DNA of 64,000 nucleotides from Diaminobutyricibacter sp. McL0608 (GTDB lineage: Bacteria > Actinomycetota > Actinomycetes > Actinomycetales > Microbacteriaceae): assembly GCF_039613825.1 (NCBI RefSeq), contig NZ_CP154826.1:1922001-1986000 (forward strand), given 5' to 3'. The notes beneath the pieces are model-generated. The model ran no database searches. It saw only the letters and a list, made by a program, of their open reading frames with translations, and was not told the DNA's origin. Of this stretch, positions 28,980 to 34,832 are shown piece by piece. Made by a program: the position numbers and the translations under genes. Numbering within the stretch: the stretch's first letter is position 1; each line of letters starts with the position of its first letter.

Positions 28980-29227
28980 TTGTCATGCTCCTTCGATTCG
29001 CGTCAGGCGGGCGCTCCGTCGCGCACACACGCGTCACGATCCCGATCGGGATTCAGCGAACACCGGTTGTTGCGGGCCTGCGTCGGCTGGGGCACCGCAC
29101 CTGTTGCTCACGTCTTCGGCATCAGATGACGTCCCCATCCTGCCACTGCCAGACCGTATTCAGTGAGGAAATCTCGAAGAATGATGTTCGTGTCTACACA
29201 AGGGATCCGGGACAGTAGGATCCGAGC
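28980..29227. promoter_or_regulatory. Divergent intergenic region with a 14-bp palindrome
   Basis: This 248-bp gap separates two divergently transcribed genes and holds no credible ORF. It contains a perfect 14-bp palindrome ATCCCGATCGGGAT at 29039-29052, placed where a regulator could affect the minus-strand gene. The ribosome site of that gene is at about 28989, and TAGGAT at 29216-29221 serves the plus-strand gene. Confidence 0.4.
29216..29221 (+). promoter_or_regulatory. -10 box (TAGGAT), leaderless spacing
   Basis: TAGGAT with exactly 6 nt to ATG 29228; no Shine-Dalgarno precedes that ATG. Confidence 0.6.
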
Positions 29228-30223
29228 ATGAGCGGTAAACGCGCCATCGTCGCGATCAGCGCCGACACCCGGCTCGCGTGGACCATCGGTGGGGCGCTCC
29301 TGATCGTCTCGCCGATCCTGTCCCTCGGCAGTCCGTCCATCGGCTCGCAGATACCCGGCGGGATCTTCATCGGACCGGTGTGCTTCGCTGCCGCCACAGT
29401 CCTCTTCGCCTTCGGCATCCGCGGCTCCGGAAGCGTGACCGCCCGGCGGCCGCTCGGGACGACCGCCGTGGTGTTCCTGGGACTCTGGACCCTGCTCACT
29501 GCAGTACTGCTCGGCCCGATCGTCTCGACGATCTATGCGGCCGGCCGGGGCGGGGTCGAATGGACGTTTGCGGTCGGCTACGCCAACGACCTCATCCAGT
29601 TCGTCGCCGCGCTCATCGCGGCGATCCAGATCGCGCGTGCAGGAGTGGTTCCGCGTCCATGGAACTGGGCGCCGACGTGGGCACTGGTCGCGATCACGGT
29701 CCCGTGGCTGGTTCTCCAGATCGTCGGATACTTCGGCGCGCCTGCCGTTGCTAATCTGGCTTTCGCGTTCTCGACGATCGACGGGCTCATCAACCTCGCA
29801 GCGACCCTCTTCCTCGGTGTAGTCGCGATCGTTCTCGCGCAGGTCGCGGCCGGGCCCGGCGCCCCCGGCTCCCGGGTCGGTACGACCGACGATGAGGGCC
29901 ACGGGGACACGAACGCTCCAGGCAGTTCCGTCGGTCAGCGGAACCTCTCTGTCGTTCTCCTGCTGGCGTTCGGTGCGCTGACGGCGATCGGAGGTGTCAT
30001 CGGTGCGCTGGCAGCGAAGGCGGCTGCCGATCACGCACTCTTCGCAGCATCCGGCCTGCGCACCCTGCCGGTCTACACGTACACGCAATTCACCCAGGCC
30101 GTGCCCTCCATCGCGCCCGAGCTTGCCGGCATGTGGGTCGGTAGCGTCGTCGCCGTGCTCGGGGTCGCCGTTCTCCTGGCAGGGGTCATCGTCGCAACCA
30201 GGAACCCGCCCCTGGCGTCGTAG
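29228..30223 (+). CDS. Hypothetical eight- to nine-helix membrane protein
   Basis: A 331-residue protein with about eight or nine hydrophobic helices and one long hydrophilic Gly/Asp-rich loop around residues 210-238 (GPGAPGSRVGTTDDEGHGD) that probably faces one side of the membrane. No family motif is recognised and no catalytic pattern is visible. Start ATG 29228 follows a TAGGAT box at 6 nt. It lies between two GT-C-like membrane proteins, 93 bp before the second, but the TAGAAT box in that gap suggests separate transcription. Real gene by codon pattern and hydrophobicity; function unknown. Confidence 0.7.
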   Translation: MSGKRAIVAISADTRLAWTIGGALLIVSPILSLGSPSIGSQIPGGIFIGPVCFAAATVLFAFGIRGSGSVTARRPLGTTAVVFLGLWTLLTAVLLGPIVSTIYAAGRGGVEWTFAVGYANDLIQFVAALIAAIQIARAGVVPRPWNWAPTWALVAITVPWLVLQIVGYFGAPAVANLAFAFSTIDGLINLAATLFLGVVAIVLAQVAAGPGAPGSRVGTTDDEGHGDTNAPGSSVGQRNLSVVLLLAFGALTAIGGVIGALAAKAAADHALFAASGLRTLPVYTYTQFTQAVPSIAPELAGMWVGSVVAVLGVAVLLAGVIVATRNPPLAS

Positions 30224-30250
30224 CCGGACGAGTGGCGTTCCCAGCTCCTG

Positions 30251-30256
30251 TAGAAT
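30251..30256 (+). promoter_or_regulatory. TAGAAT -10 box inside a short inverted repeat
   Basis: TAGAAT is part of GTAGAA-TTCGTG-TTCTAC (30250-30267), an 18-nt element with 6-bp inverted arms followed by TCTTTTC. It could be the promoter of the gene at 30317 with an operator over it, or a weak terminator of the preceding gene. Confidence 0.4.
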
Positions 30257-30316
30257 TCGTGTTCTACTCTTTTCTGGTCCGGTAGTCCGTCAGCACGCGA
30301 GAGCTTCATTCCTTCC

Positions 30317-32461
30317 ATGACGTCCACGTCGAACCTCGAACTCGCGGCCCCCGCCGAGTCCCTTCCTGAGACGATGGAAGGACCGCACGGGCCGTCGCGC
30401 GGCGCTGCCCGGTTTCGCCGGGTCGCCGTCATCTGGGGCATCCCGCTTGTCCTCCTTGTCGCGTGCATGGCGTTCTACGTATCGCTCGAGGACCAGATCT
30501 ACTTCTACGACCCGCGCGGGTTCCAGGAGATGGCGATGGGTGTCTCGCAGGCGCTCCGCGGGGGACCGCTGGCGTTCATCCATGAGTTGCTCGCAGCAAG
30601 CAGATCCGAGTATCCGCCGTACTGGTCTGTTCCCCTGACCGGGTTATCGCCCGCTCGCCTGAACGTTCGCATCGTCTACATCCTCGCGATGACGATCGTC
30701 GGGCTGGTGCCGGTCGTCATCCTCATCACGAAGATCGTCAGTCGCCTCTTCAGTGTGCGGGTCTCGATCCCGATCGTTCTGATCGTCGCCTTCAACCCCA
30801 CCACCTTCCTCATCGCAGAGATCGGCGTTCCCGATCTCATCGGGTTCGCCTTCATCCTCGGCGCGATCTGGATACTCATCTCACGACCGATGAACAGGAG
30901 CACGCTCTTCTGGGCGCTCCTCACCGGATCGCTCTCGCTCCTCACCAAGAAGAACTTCCTCTTCGACCTCGTCATCGTGTTCGGGGTCTACCTGCTCGCC
31001 TATGTGGTCACTGCATTCATCGATCGCCAGGCGGCGACCCGGATGAAGGCGTTGTCACGCGAGCTCTTCAGCCTGCGCGTCATCCTCGCGGCGGTCGGTG
31101 TGGTGGTGGGCATCGCGGTCCTGACCCCGGGAACCCTCTCAGCGATCTTCTCGCGGGACAATTCCCTCTTCTACGCCAGCTACCAGAGCACGCTCAGCGA
31201 TGTGCTCGCCACCGACCTCAAATATGCCGGCGGCGTCATCGCTCTGGCTGCTGCGATCGTCGGCCTGATAGCGCTCGTCATGCTCATCCGCTCGCCGAGG
31301 CCGGGTGTCCGCAGCCGGGCGATATTCGTCCTCGGGTTCGTCGCTGTCTCGGAATTCGTGTGGGCGTTCACTCAGCGTCAGGCCGGCCTGATCCACGAAG
31401 TGCACGTCTGGCCTCTCCTGACGTCCACCGGGTTCGTCGGGGTCTGCGTCTTCTTCACGAGAGGGCGCACCCGCCCCGTCCACATCGCTTCCGCCGCTGT
31501 GGTGCTTCTGACCTTCATCTACATGTTCGCCCCGGTCACCCCGCTCCTTGCTCCCGCTCGCGCTGCAGGCGCAGCTCTCCCTCCTGCCCTTCGCCCGACC
31601 GTGAGCTTCCCGTGGGTCCAGTCGAACATCCAGCAGCTCGAAGTTCTGGCGAAGACGGTCGACAGCGCGGCGAAGACCGGGGGCCCGATACTCGTGCCGG
31701 TCGGATCGAACGTGCTGAACAGCAGCATCCTGAGCGAGGTCTTCGCGCAACGACTGGCGACGGCCGCGCCCGACATCTTCCTGATGCCGCAGGTGGACCT
31801 GCAGGACGCACTGCCCTGGTCGACACTGATCGGCGATCAGGGCCGGACGGTGCTCGTATCGACCCGATGGACACCGGACCTCGCCAAAGGGCGCAACAAC
31901 CTCATGAATGTCGACCGATTCCTCCAGTCGCCCGACGCGGCACGATGGATCACCTCGAGAACACCCGTCGACGCCGGGCAATCCTGGACCTTGACGGACC
32001 TGCAGCTCGTGCGGCTGCGCATTCCGCAATCGGATGCGATCGACTTCGCCCGGGCCATCCGCCCGTACCTGCCAGCCACGACAGGCCACGGGATCGAGGA
32101 CCAGCTCGCACTGCTGACCGATGACGACCGGCGGTCACAGGGGCCGAACTCCTCGACGCCCACCTCGTGGTCGACGCTCGTCGGAGGCGGGACCGCACCC
32201 ACACGCGTTCTGGTCAATCCTGCGACCACAACGAAAGTCGACCTCGGCACCCAGCCGGGGTGCGGACGACTCCAGTACAGCTGGACGGATATCTCGGCGC
32301 CGGCTGCAGCTCGTGCAGCGGGGGACGGGTCCATCGGCAGCGCATTGAAGCGCGGCGGCACTGTCACGGTTCCGAGCGGCGCGGAACCCTGGTCGTTCGT
32401 GCTCTCACTGAGCTACAGCGACCCGGGCCTGAGCGGCTGCGTCGTACAGCTCACGCCGTAG
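30317..32461 (+). CDS. Large membrane protein, GT-C glycosyltransferase-like
   Basis: A 714-residue protein with about eleven helices in residues 37-430 and a large extracellular C-terminal domain of about 290 residues. After helix 1 the loop YFYDPRGFQEMAMG carries an Asp in the place used by GT-C sugar transferases; SEYPPYWSVPL follows as in PMT/ArnT-like proteins. This suggests transfer of a lipid-linked sugar to a cell-wall or surface acceptor, but it is inference from topology. Its C-terminal domain has no motif I recognise. It is the last gene before the tRNA-linked island; attL lies 52 bp after its stop. Confidence 0.7.
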   Translation: MTSTSNLELAAPAESLPETMEGPHGPSRGAARFRRVAVIWGIPLVLLVACMAFYVSLEDQIYFYDPRGFQEMAMGVSQALRGGPLAFIHELLAASRSEYPPYWSVPLTGLSPARLNVRIVYILAMTIVGLVPVVILITKIVSRLFSVRVSIPIVLIVAFNPTTFLIAEIGVPDLIGFAFILGAIWILISRPMNRSTLFWALLTGSLSLLTKKNFLFDLVIVFGVYLLAYVVTAFIDRQAATRMKALSRELFSLRVILAAVGVVVGIAVLTPGTLSAIFSRDNSLFYASYQSTLSDVLATDLKYAGGVIALAAAIVGLIALVMLIRSPRPGVRSRAIFVLGFVAVSEFVWAFTQRQAGLIHEVHVWPLLTSTGFVGVCVFFTRGRTRPVHIASAAVVLLTFIYMFAPVTPLLAPARAAGAALPPALRPTVSFPWVQSNIQQLEVLAKTVDSAAKTGGPILVPVGSNVLNSSILSEVFAQRLATAAPDIFLMPQVDLQDALPWSTLIGDQGRTVLVSTRWTPDLAKGRNNLMNVDRFLQSPDAARWITSRTPVDAGQSWTLTDLQLVRLRIPQSDAIDFARAIRPYLPATTGHGIEDQLALLTDDDRRSQGPNSSTPTSWSTLVGGGTAPTRVLVNPATTTKVDLGTQPGCGRLQYSWTDISAPAAARAAGDGSIGSALKRGGTVTVPSGAEPWSFVLSLSYSDPGLSGCVVQLTP

Positions 32462-32512
32462 GACGAGTGCTGCGAGGCGAACCGTGTTCGCCGCAGGCAT
32501 GCCGCTGATGAA

Positions 32513-32537
32513 GTGCCGGTGGTGGGACTCGAACCCA
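32513..32537. repeat. attL: copy of the tRNA-Leu 3' end
   Basis: GTGCCGGTGGTGGGACTCG followed by AACCCA, identical over 25 bp to 34749-34773. It represents the T-arm and acceptor 3' strand of tRNA-Leu read on the minus strand, without the rest of the tRNA, and marks the far end of the integrated element. Confidence 0.85.
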
Positions 32538-32784
32538 ATTTGGCCCCTGTCGTGGCGGGCAACTTCCGCGTAATTCCGGGGATTTTGACCCTCTACGTAC
32601 CCCTGTTTACGGTTGCGTACTCGCACGAATGTGGGTGATGTCCGATGTGGTGAGGGGGTCCATACGCTTATCTTGCAGGTTCCGATGCATCGCGCGCGCA
32701 TAGGGGTGCCTGAATTTCTCCGGGGGTACCGGCTGACTACCGTGAAGAGTGTGCAGCGGTCGGTCATGCCGCGATCTTGACTCC

Positions 32785-32796
32785 CCCAGATCTGGG
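32785..32796. promoter_or_regulatory. 12-bp palindrome upstream of the LRR gene
   Basis: CCCAGATCTGGG is a perfect palindrome 12 bp before the TACATT box. Its position over the -35 region is that of an operator; no regulator gene is left in the island. Confidence 0.4.
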
Positions 32797-32808
32797 TTGG
32801 TCACCTGC

Positions 32809-32814
32809 TACATT
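32809..32814 (+). promoter_or_regulatory. -10 box (TACATT) of the LRR transcript
   Basis: TACATT with 6 nt to GTG 32821, the first codon of a 6-codon upstream ORF. The spacing equals that at the leaderless genes elsewhere in the window. Confidence 0.5.
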
Positions 32815-32820
32815 CGGCAC

Positions 32821-32841
32821 GTGAGTATGGGTGTGATGTGA
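32821..32841 (+). CDS. Six-codon leaderless leader peptide
   Basis: GTG AGT ATG GGT GTG ATG TGA encodes MSMGVM. It starts exactly 6 nt after the TACATT box, and its stop codon overlaps the GTG start of the LRR gene by three bases (the string GTGA). Since the LRR start has no ribosome site of its own, ribosomes ending here would be placed to reinitiate on it. This is inference from geometry; no protein evidence is possible from sequence. Confidence 0.4.
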   Translation: MSMGVM

Positions 32842-33824
32842 ACGATGTCAGGAGCCTCCGTTCTCCACTGACCGCCGATATGTTGCGTCCGCCAGGCGCC
32901 TCCACTTCGGTTCAGTTCGACGCCGCGCTCTCCGCGGATGACTATGGTCGGCTGAACAGTTGGTTTGCCCAGTACCCCGAAGTGAGACTAAGGGTTTACG
33001 GCTTCTGGACGACCGATCTTGGCTTCCTCGAGCACTTGACGAGTGTGCGCAACCTAGGTCTTGGCCTGTGGCTCCTCGAGTCCTACGACGGGATTCAAGC
33101 GTTGCCTCCCGAGATGGTTTCGCTTGGTCTGGGGGATACGAAAAAACGGCTTTCGGTTGCCGGACTGGAACGCTTTCGGAACCTTCGTGAACTCTGGGTG
33201 TCGAAGAACACCAAAGACATCGACGTGGTTTCCACTCTCACGTCGCTCGAAGACCTCACCCTGATGTCGATGAAACTGCCGGACCTGTCGATCGTGTCGA
33301 ACCTCGTCAACCTCCGAGAATTCGAACTCGCACTTGGCGGAACTCAGAACCTGACCGGCCTCGAAACCCTCCCGAAGTTGTCGAAGCTTTACATCTGGAG
33401 AGTTCGCGGCCTAACCGATCTGTCGATCGTGAGCGAGCTCAAACACCTCGAACGGCTCACCATCTCTAACCTCCCGCACGTGGCCGCGATTCCGGACCTC
33501 TCGCGCTTAGATCAGCTGGAAGACGTCGCATTTGCTGCTCTTCCATTGGTGACAGCCATTCCGGACCTCTCGCGGCCGCCACACCTAAAAAGCTTCCACC
33601 TCGGAGACATGAGGGGCATAAAAGACCTTCGCCCGCTGCTGAGCGCCCCTGAGCTCGAGACGGTGAGCCTTATCGAGATGCAGCATCTGAAACCCGAAGA
33701 CGTAGGCATATTGGCCGCGAATCCGACTCTCCGTTATGTTCGCGCTGGCCTTGGCTCGACTCGCAAGAACGAAGAAGCACGCCGACGTGTGGGGCTGCCC
33801 GAACCTCCCAGACCAACCACCTAG
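32838..33824 (+). CDS. Leucine-rich-repeat protein, island cargo
   Basis: A 328-residue cytoplasmic protein. Residues 1-45 form a short non-repeat N-terminus; residues 60-305 contain about nine repeats of 22-23 residues. Typical units are LTSLEDLTLMSMKLPDLS, LVNLREFELALGG, LPKLSKLYIWRVRGLTDLS and LKHLERLTISNLP; DLSIVS and IPDLSR recur at fixed places. There is no signal peptide, membrane helix, LPxTG or catalytic motif. Base use differs from its neighbours: runs of A and T and codons ending in A/T are far more common, a sign of transfer. It is the only intact gene of the island. LRR proteins bind other proteins, so an immunity, anti-phage or regulator-binding role is possible, but none is shown. 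Confidence 0.8.
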   Translation: MNDVRSLRSPLTADMLRPPGASTSVQFDAALSADDYGRLNSWFAQYPEVRLRVYGFWTTDLGFLEHLTSVRNLGLGLWLLESYDGIQALPPEMVSLGLGDTKKRLSVAGLERFRNLRELWVSKNTKDIDVVSTLTSLEDLTLMSMKLPDLSIVSNLVNLREFELALGGTQNLTGLETLPKLSKLYIWRVRGLTDLSIVSELKHLERLTISNLPHVAAIPDLSRLDQLEDVAFAALPLVTAIPDLSRPPHLKSFHLGDMRGIKDLRPLLSAPELETVSLIEMQHLKPEDVGILAANPTLRYVRAGLGSTRKNEEARRRVGLPEPPRPTT

Positions 33825-33826
33825 GG

Positions 33827-34282
33827 CTAGGTGTCGGCGGTGAGGATGCGCAGCCTGAGGGCGAGGGTCTGGGTTGCTGCCCGGTTCGTCGGTGCGCTCT
33901 TGATCGCCAGGATCTCGGTCGTCTGGTTCGCGCCGACCGGGACCAGGCTCACCTCGTACAGGCGTACCTGGCGGAGTTCGTTCGCCTTCTCCCCTCCCGC
34001 CACCTCCACGGGCCCCTGGTCGATGGTGTCGTAGGCGAACGACAGCTGGGACAGGCGGCGGGACTTCACCAGGCTGTAGACCTGCTCGGCGGCGGGCGCG
34101 TCATCGAACTTGCCGTGCACCAAAAGCCCGTGGTCGTCTTCGCTGAGGTCTACTGCTGCGGCCACGTTCATGTACGGGTCGGCGGCGTTGTGGCCGTAGA
34201 GGATCGGCACGGTGTTGCCGGATGATGCCCAGTCCTGGATGGTCTGGGCGAACGCGCCCTTTGCCACCACGTCCCCCGAAGA
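33827..34282 (-). pseudogene. HK97-family prohead protease, 5'-truncated
   Basis: About 151 residues remain of a phage capsid maturation protease that clips scaffold and capsid proteins inside the prohead. The family pattern begins at SSGDVVAKGAFAQTIQDW and continues with VPILYGHNAADP (catalytic His), RLSQLSFAYDT (catalytic Ser), and YEVSLVPVGANQTTEILAIKS near the end. The first 40 or so residues, including the start codon, are missing; upstream of 34282 the frame runs into integrase sequence of the other strand. Its stop is 2 bp from the convergent LRR stop. Confidence 0.8.
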
Positions 34283-34697
34283 GCCATGAGGCCAGGTCCG
34301 TGCCGTACCCCGAGTTCCTTGCAGCTGCGATGGCTGCGCAGTGCGCCGGGAAGGGACCGAACGAACTGGTGTTCCCGAACCAGGAGGGCGGGTACATGCT
34401 CGCTCCCAACACCACCGTCGGATCACAGTCCTGGTACCTCACCGCCATCCGTGAAGCAGGCCTTCCCAAGCTGACGCTGCACGACCTGCGGCACACCGCC
34501 GCGAGCCTCGCGATCAGCGCTGGGGCGAACGTGAAGGCGGTGCAGCGCATGCTCGGCCACGCCTCCGCAGCATGACGTTGGACATCTACGCCGACCTGTT
34601 CGAAGACGACCTCGACGCCGTGGCCGAGCGCCTAAGCGAGGGTGCGACCGCAGCAAATGTGGGGTTTTTGTGGGGTTTTTCGCACCTGGCCAGTTGA
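34279..34697 (+). pseudogene. Tyrosine integrase, truncated and frameshifted
   Basis: The C-terminal catalytic part of a phage integrase. Visible are KSHEARSVPYPEFL, LVFPNQEGGYM, then LHDLRHTAASLAISAGANVKAVQRMLGHAS with the conserved H-L-R-H-T and L-G-H box. At about 34570 the frame breaks: the sequence stops after GHASAA and continues in another frame as MTLDIYADLFEDDLDAVAERL, the expected tail. Insertion of one base would restore it. The tyrosine nucleophile is in IYADLF of the shifted part. The N-terminal two thirds are missing. It lies beside the tRNA-Leu target, as usual for integrases of this kind. Confidence 0.85.
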
Positions 34698-34748
34698 GGC
34701 CCTGCCCGCATCCCGCGCGGTTACTGGGAAGTGGGCTGCCGCCCCGTT

Positions 34749-34773
34749 GTGCCGGTGGTGGGACTCGAACCCA
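34749..34773. repeat. attR: 25-bp repeat within tRNA-Leu 3' end
   Basis: Identical to 32513-32537. It covers bases 34750-34773 of the tRNA gene (acceptor 3' strand, T-arm) plus one base outside it, so integration left the tRNA gene intact. Confidence 0.85.
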
Positions 34774-34832
34774 CACGCCCTCTCGGACAAAGCATTTTGA
34801 GTGCTCCGCGTCTGCCATTCCGCCACACCGGC
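34750..34832 (-). tRNA. tRNA-Leu (CAA anticodon)
   Basis: Read on the minus strand the 83-nt gene starts GCCGGTG and ends CACCGGCA, which pair as a 7-bp acceptor stem with discriminator A. The D-arm GGCGGAATGGCAGACGC, the anticodon arm AGCA-CTCAAAA-TGCT with CAA at positions 34-36, a long class II variable arm (TTGTCCGAGAGGGCGT region), and the T-arm GTGGGTTCGAGTCCCAC are all present. CCA is not encoded. It reads leucine UUG codons and is the insertion target of the neighbouring island. Confidence 0.93.

Follow-up and report, generated by a model that had tools for sequence, protein, structure and literature searches.

The 64,000-nucleotide stretch of the Diaminobutyricibacter sp. McL0608 genome analysed here (contig NZ_CP154826.1; hereafter the window) carries a 2.2-kb decayed mobile island at its tRNA-Leu(CAA) gene. 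The island has retained both copies of its attachment site (att), an observation that an earlier note had made from the DNA letters alone and that we confirm. Judged by sequence comparison, it is a tRNA-integrated, deletion-decayed prophage-like remnant, an element of a well-known kind. We consider it probable that an element derived from a tailed phage integrated at tRNA-Leu(CAA) and was then deleted down to an island holding a gene for a leucine-rich-repeat (LRR) protein, and that a related element at the same site in the sister species (genome G001, the only other species of the genus compared) arrived separately. The features of the island are given below with their window coordinates, strand and supporting match.

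32513..32537, +: distal attachment-site copy (putative displaced 3' end of the host tRNA gene); 25/25 identical to 34749-34773.
32538..32640, +: distal attachment arm with TTCCGCGTAATTCCGGGG and one TGTGGG (32630-32635); 78/100 identical to the sister-species arm, with a similar arm in genomes G267 and G412.
32703..32786, +: putative element-borne block just before the cargo, one frame of which reads ..YREECAAVGHAAILTP..; 85% identical over ~84 bp to genome G200 and 73-75% to the sister island.
32838..33824, +: intact cargo open reading frame (ORF) for a 328-amino-acid LRR protein; LRR_4, E 4e-9; 42% identity over 321 amino acids to a protein of genome G382.
33827..34285, -: prohead (capsid maturation) protease fragment, ~152 amino acids, N-terminus missing; Pfam Peptidase_S78, E 4e-24; phrog_3244, E 7e-54.
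34279..34697, +: C-terminal remnant of a tyrosine integrase, N-terminus missing, frameshift near 34572; PF00589, E 1e-10; phrog_1, E 7e-20.
34658..34674, +: pair of TGTGGG motifs 11 bp apart (starts 34658 and 34669), likely integrase arm sites; same spacing in 12/34 family loci.
34749..34773, +: proximal attachment-site copy, the 3' end of the tRNA gene; repeat match and tRNA call.
34749..34832, -: tRNA-Leu(CAA), the integration target; ARAGORN.

Positions 32513-32537 and 34749-34773 form an exact 25-bp direct repeat (25/25 identical), at the coordinates that the earlier note had given. With up to three mismatches allowed, these two copies are the only ones in the window, and 100 dinucleotide-preserving shuffles produced none. 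ARAGORN places tRNA-Leu(CAA) on the minus strand at 34749-34832, and the right repeat copy is the exact 3' end of this tRNA. The integrase remnant adjoins it, as had been described, and is recognised by its PF00589 and phrog_1 matches. Between the repeat copies lie 2.2 kb with an open LRR ORF, a prohead-protease fragment and a tyrosine-integrase tail, that is, the phage fragments and the one intact gene that the note had seen there. Arm sequence homologous to that of the sister island has been kept beside both repeat copies. The island shows the marks of a tRNA-integrated prophage remnant: a repeat of the tRNA end at both ends, an integrase on the tRNA-proximal side, a fragment of a phage structural gene and an empty site in relatives. 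The exact 25-mer was also found in 25 stretches of viral contigs, 20 of which lack a complete tRNA call (in one of the stretches, L244, the tRNA is, by eye, cut at the contig end) and two of which have an integrase match within 1.5 kb. This is only a hint that the 25-mer serves as an att core.

In relatives, the order of genes around this tRNA is conserved as pyruvate kinase, tRNA-Leu(CAA), a response regulator with an ANTAR domain and DNA polymerase I; the first and last are presumably pyk and polA. In order to look for empty sites, we searched about 19.7 kb downstream of tRNA-Leu(CAA) in 20 genomes, one per genus, for a second copy of each genome's own tRNA end (22 bases, up to three mismatches). 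No second copy was found within this distance in 18 of the 20, which bears out the empty sites that the earlier note had predicted. The remaining two have degenerate copies at 151 bp (G024) and 188 bp (G022). In G022 (L122), the degenerate tRNA end ~188 bp downstream is followed by the string CGCATTTCCGCGCGG, which resembles the distal arm of the islands; this locus is possibly the scar of a lost island. None of the 20 relatives matched any of three query integrases in the same ~19.7 kb (tblastn, E 1e-4), a search that could miss integrases of other kinds. Between pyk and the tRNA lie 122-262 bp in five of these genomes, 0.9-1.6 kb in five and 3.9-15.8 kb in eight (not found in two); in the window the two are 25.0 kb apart, in the sister species 33.7 kb. 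Since this distance varies so widely, the spot is a variable one, of which the island makes up only the part next to the tRNA.

Other islands occupy the same tRNA. A scan of 398 genomes of the family for the arm that continues from the core copy returned this genome, the sister species, G267 and G412 among the matches listed, as well as an isolated 30-bp arm match elsewhere in the genome of G018. The string TCCGCGYAATTCCG is common to the arms of the window, the sister island, G267 and G412. In G267, two perfect copies lie 17.9 kb apart and enclose a long integrase ORF (PF00589, E 4e-22) together with AIPR and Fic genes; its integrase is 25% identical over 384 amino acids to that of G382. In G412, the copies are 12.6 kb apart with one mismatch over 22 bases, and the island has two HipA-like genes and transposase genes. 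The prediction that other islands with different cargo would be found here thus held in three genomes (G001, G267 and G412). It had also been reasoned that the repeat would not mark an integration if relatives lacking the phage genes had both repeats and the LRR gene in the same place. No such arrangement was observed: in the sister species both repeats are present and an integrase tail persists, but the LRR gene and the protease are missing from this place. Integration at tRNA-Leu(CAA) is therefore well supported. A cargo protein of the G267 island (L105, 11159-12259, minus strand) is 33% identical over 166 amino acids to one of an island in G200 (L223, 10112-10909, plus strand), so islands unrelated in appearance seem to share cargo.

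Short-range copies of the tRNA end were observed in two further genera. In genus g71 (L194-L198: G325, G288, G073, G142 and G197), the 3' half of tRNA-Leu(CAA) is present downstream in two to three tandem copies 81-82 bp apart, which resemble the rtT repeats after tyrT of E. coli. In genus g89 (L190, L192 and L193: G254, G295 and G154), the 3' end recurs once, 124-159 bp downstream; as read by eye, each copy in L190 and L193 is preceded by a terminator-like hairpin.

Both phage-derived genes of the island are truncated. The relative of the protease in phage BAjuniper is a 738-bp gene, of which ~60% remains in the window. The integrase remnant points toward the tRNA, its tail ends ~50 bp from the tRNA copy, and it is 52-67% identical to family relatives among the matches listed. 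Relatives of this integrase are present in 64 of the 398 family genomes, its own included (E up to 1e-25). We examined 34 integrase loci, namely the best 30 of the family search, with the window among them, and four others. In 24 of the 34, window included (23/33 without it), the integrase ends 98-445 bp from a tRNA 3' end; at the other ten, a search over 700 bp revealed no tRNA. At 12 of the 34 loci, again counting the window, the integrase is followed by two TGTGGG motifs with a spacing of exactly 11 bp, and these motifs are likely arm sites of the integrase. At the distal end the window has a single TGTGGG (32630), and the sister island has a TGTGGG with a TGCGGG 11 bp beyond it. With its integrase broken, the element would no longer be able to excise by itself.

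Three further integrases of the same family are encoded in the McL0608 genome itself (L131, L132 and L133). Two are long ORFs, one next to tRNA-Arg(CCT) and one at a distance of ~1.6 kb from a tRNA-Thr/tRNA-Met pair, and the third is a short remnant next to tRNA-Phe. With the intact relative L131 as query, tyrosine integrases of the Gordonia phages Finkle (45% identity), Gsput1 (42%) and Schmidt (39%) were matched. They are integrases of the same kind and are annotated as phage integrases, whereas the window copy, which was not the query, is a dead C-terminal remnant.

The sister island is 2.07 kb long and lies at the same tRNA with homologous ends, and ORFs of 138 and 179 amino acids take the place of the LRR gene and the protease. 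Neither ORF has a match in Pfam, NCBIfam or PADLOC. The LRR protein has no match in the sister genome, and the 179-amino-acid protein has none in this one. The integrase tails of the two islands are identical at 95 of 101 positions (94%) and at 12 of 13 fourfold degenerate sites (P 0.013 against 0.6), whereas ten host genes of the window are 41.7-68.6% identical to their sister-species counterparts at such sites. Identity is 70/94 in the right arm (P 0.007 against 62%), 78/100 in the distal arm and 65/89 in the block before the cargo. The two genomes share their backbone up to window position 29012. From 29013 to 32512, no equivalent was found in the sister genome except one 38-bp match, and the left outer flank of the island is not homologous. 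This segment holds two genes (331 and 714 amino acids) with host-like third-position GC content (GC3) that are absent from the sister species, which has in its place 13.6 kb of other DNA, including ORFs that by eye resemble sugar transport genes.

The identity of the integrase tails far exceeds that of host fourfold sites, and the left flanks differ. For these reasons we prefer to see the two islands as probable separate arrivals of related elements after the species split; one old insertion decaying neutrally would be hard to square with such a difference between tail and host divergence. Recombination between the two species is also possible.

The block at 32703-32786 lies ~50 bp 5' of the LRR start. 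Its match in G200 (L223, 9933-10014, minus strand) belongs to an island at tRNA-Pro and is flanked there by a cargo ORF and a tyrosine-integrase ORF (239 amino acids, perhaps incomplete). Aligned by eye in one frame, the window, G200 and sister blocks give a similar peptide with many third-base changes. The possible short reading frame reads ..REECA.VGHAAILTP.. (window 32703-32786; L223 9933-10014), and the block may be a fragment of a small element gene. A search with the block gave short matches in 51 of 319 genomes at E up to 0.1, most of them chance-like; among the 12 loci listed, the window included, those of the sister species and G200 are convincing, and the other nine are short matches, as read by eye. 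As a peptide, the block had one phage match at E 5 and none in plasmids. A structured RNA was rejected (z 0.25).

The cargo gene has a GC3 of 0.68, compared to 0.88 and 0.83 in two other window genes. By sequence, the closest solved chains to the LRR protein are internalins, a likeness at the level of the repeats only. Its single-sequence structure prediction was poor (mean predicted local distance difference test score, pLDDT, 49), too poor for use in a fold search. The gene is rare in the family and order. Its best homologue in the 398 family genomes (G382, 42% identity over 321 amino acids) is encoded beside a tRNA-Lys; the locus also has an integrase of the window family and genes for Barstar and a YefM-type antitoxin. 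The contig ends there, and a second att copy was not found. In another family, a homologue in G749 (42% over 310 amino acids) adjoins tRNA-Ser in a stretch of mostly low GC3 with helix-turn-helix, kinase-like and HEPN genes, in which no integrase match was seen. A peptide-pattern search for LRR homologues returned one cyanobacterial LRR protein in genome contigs, none in viral contigs and four plasmid records at 24-30% identity.

Zhang et al. 2012 (PMC3482391) list Imm-LRR and Imm-Barstar as immunity classes and describe Imm-LRR immunity proteins of polymorphic toxin systems as LRR proteins in mixed immunity loci, actinobacteria included. The G382 homologue likewise lies near a Barstar gene; by contrast, a cognate toxin was not found among the neighbours scanned. 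Our best guess is that the window cargo may be an orphan immunity or antitoxin-like binding protein, a reading to which we give less than even weight. PADLOC gave no match for the G382 homologue or the Barstar ORF, and two weak matches for one G382 neighbour (E 0.0014 and 0.0078). The idea that the cargo belongs to a known defence system was given up, as no match supported it.

In the history that we favour, a tailed-phage-derived integrative element would have recombined at the 3' end of tRNA-Leu(CAA) through its tyrosine integrase. A phage attachment site (attP) with the same 25-bp core would have restored the tRNA beside the integrase end and displaced the host's original 3' end to 32513. 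Large deletions would then have joined the prohead-protease fragment to the integrase tail and removed nearly everything else, with one gene surviving whole, that of an LRR protein whose family appears to travel in other tRNA-associated islands as well. Judging from divergence and flanks, a related element would have reached the sister species at the same tRNA separately, after the split, and would also have been mostly lost.

Several observations weigh against this history or parts of it. None of the other 33 integrase loci examined is at tRNA-Leu(CAA), and an intact element with an integrase of the window family was not seen there. The distal arm has no match in phage records (E 0.01), and the protease is only 51-59% identical to 20 phage proteases among the matches listed (524 records matched). 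More distant LRR homologues (G042 and G492) adjoin housekeeping-type genes: in both, one neighbour is a glutathionylspermidine-synthase-like gene and the other a flotillin-like gene, the latter by a scan of G042 only. Scans of some of the neighbours at each of six LRR-homologue loci revealed no polymorphic-toxin domain, and the LRR protein has no PADLOC match. As to the sister island, the identity of the right arm fails to reach significance when tested against the highest host value (69%, P 0.15), and the noncoding ends are only 73-78% identical between the species and make a weaker argument than the integrase tail.

The last of these points also suits a single integration in the common ancestor, followed by different losses in the two lineages, with the cargo exchanged or deleted within a frame that both retained. 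In both species the ends and the block before the cargo are homologous and occupy the same place, and the backbone is shared up to window 29012. Against it stand the integrase tail, at 94% and 12/13 fourfold sites compared to 42-69% in ten host genes, the distal copy with all 25 bases unchanged, and the left outer flank, which is not homologous; we rank this explanation second to separate arrivals and regard it as unlikely. A capsid-forming phage satellite, or an integrative element with few head genes, could have been the ancestor in place of a full prophage. A single structural gene fragment is left, and no phage structural gene was seen by eye in the ORF lists of G267 and G412, few of whose ORFs were scanned. 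Nothing satellite-specific is left in the much-reduced island, however, and a prohead protease is most simply derived from a tailed prophage, which makes a satellite rather improbable. The repeat might also have arisen by local duplication of the tRNA 3' end without integration, with the phage debris present by chance. Short-range copies do exist in genera g71 and g89, where 3-kb loci gave no match to two query integrases or the protease. Here, however, the copies are 2.2 kb apart, the arms are common to the sister island, and the integrase tail ends ~50 bp from the tRNA copy; this explanation was already disfavoured and is very improbable.

The earlier note had further taken the retention of both att sites and of one undamaged gene as a sign of selection for the cargo. 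This step is not supported. The right repeat copy belongs to the tRNA gene and has been kept for that reason; large deletions seem to account for most of the loss of phage genes, so that one intact gene needs no selection; and in a young island a neutral ORF may well still be open. As none of the 25 bases of the distal copy has changed, neutral divergence is at most ~11% (95%). We modelled a neutral 984-bp ORF in which 2.7% of point changes create a stop, counting point changes only and leaving small indels aside. The LRR ORF would stay free of stops with a probability of 0.59 at 2%, 0.26 at 5% and 0.07 at 10% divergence. In an island as young as this one may be, an open ORF is thus no proof of selection, and since the sister island seems to be a separate arrival, it offers no evidence for long retention of the cargo. 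We see about even chances that the LRR gene is a neutral passenger yet to decay and not a selected trait. A possibly young island, in which the gene would often stay open at 2% or 5% divergence, and the absence of the gene from the sister genome together with its rarity in the family and order fit a passenger. The low probability at 10% divergence speaks against one, as does the conservation of the protein family across genera and families, by which the gene must work somewhere. Selection for the cargo is possible.

Grounded (defective) prophages at tRNA genes are represented, in PMC6379469, by DLP12 at argU of E. coli. They share with the window island a tRNA 3'-end target, a duplicated att core, loss of the recombinase, deletions and remaining cargo. 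Compared to DLP12, the island is much smaller (2.2 kb), has only two broken phage genes and differs in host lineage and cargo. There is also a likeness to recombinase-associated acquired interbacterial defence (rAID) clusters, in the tyrosine recombinase beside orphan immunity-like genes at the G382 locus and in the shared sequence block before the cargo. The block is, however, one short fragment, phage parts are present and the bacterial group differs. The island was not assigned to rAID, in which short co-oriented immunity genes, separated by conserved intergenic motifs, form an array with a tyrosine recombinase; here there are one cargo gene and one broken integrase. Among the papers listed in a literature search of partial coverage, no title concerned this tRNA site or one-gene immunity islands in the family.

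The island is a clean small case of how a tRNA-end hot spot is filled by elements and then emptied. Two species of one genus seem to have acquired related elements at this one site, each keeping different genes. It also serves as a warning that one intact gene in a possibly young remnant is poor ground for inferring selection. A broader idea, speculative and in our view improbable, is that tRNA-targeting integrases of the window family transport orphan genes of immunity or antitoxin-like type one by one (LRR, Barstar, YefM and others) and exchange them repeatedly among these bacteria, the backbone being quickly deleted and the protective gene left at the tRNA. If true, such swapping would be a one-gene-at-a-time counterpart of the acquired interbacterial defence clusters of Bacteroidales. 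If the cargo is indeed an immunity gene, the tRNA-Leu(CAA) site would be a place to seek such genes in the family.

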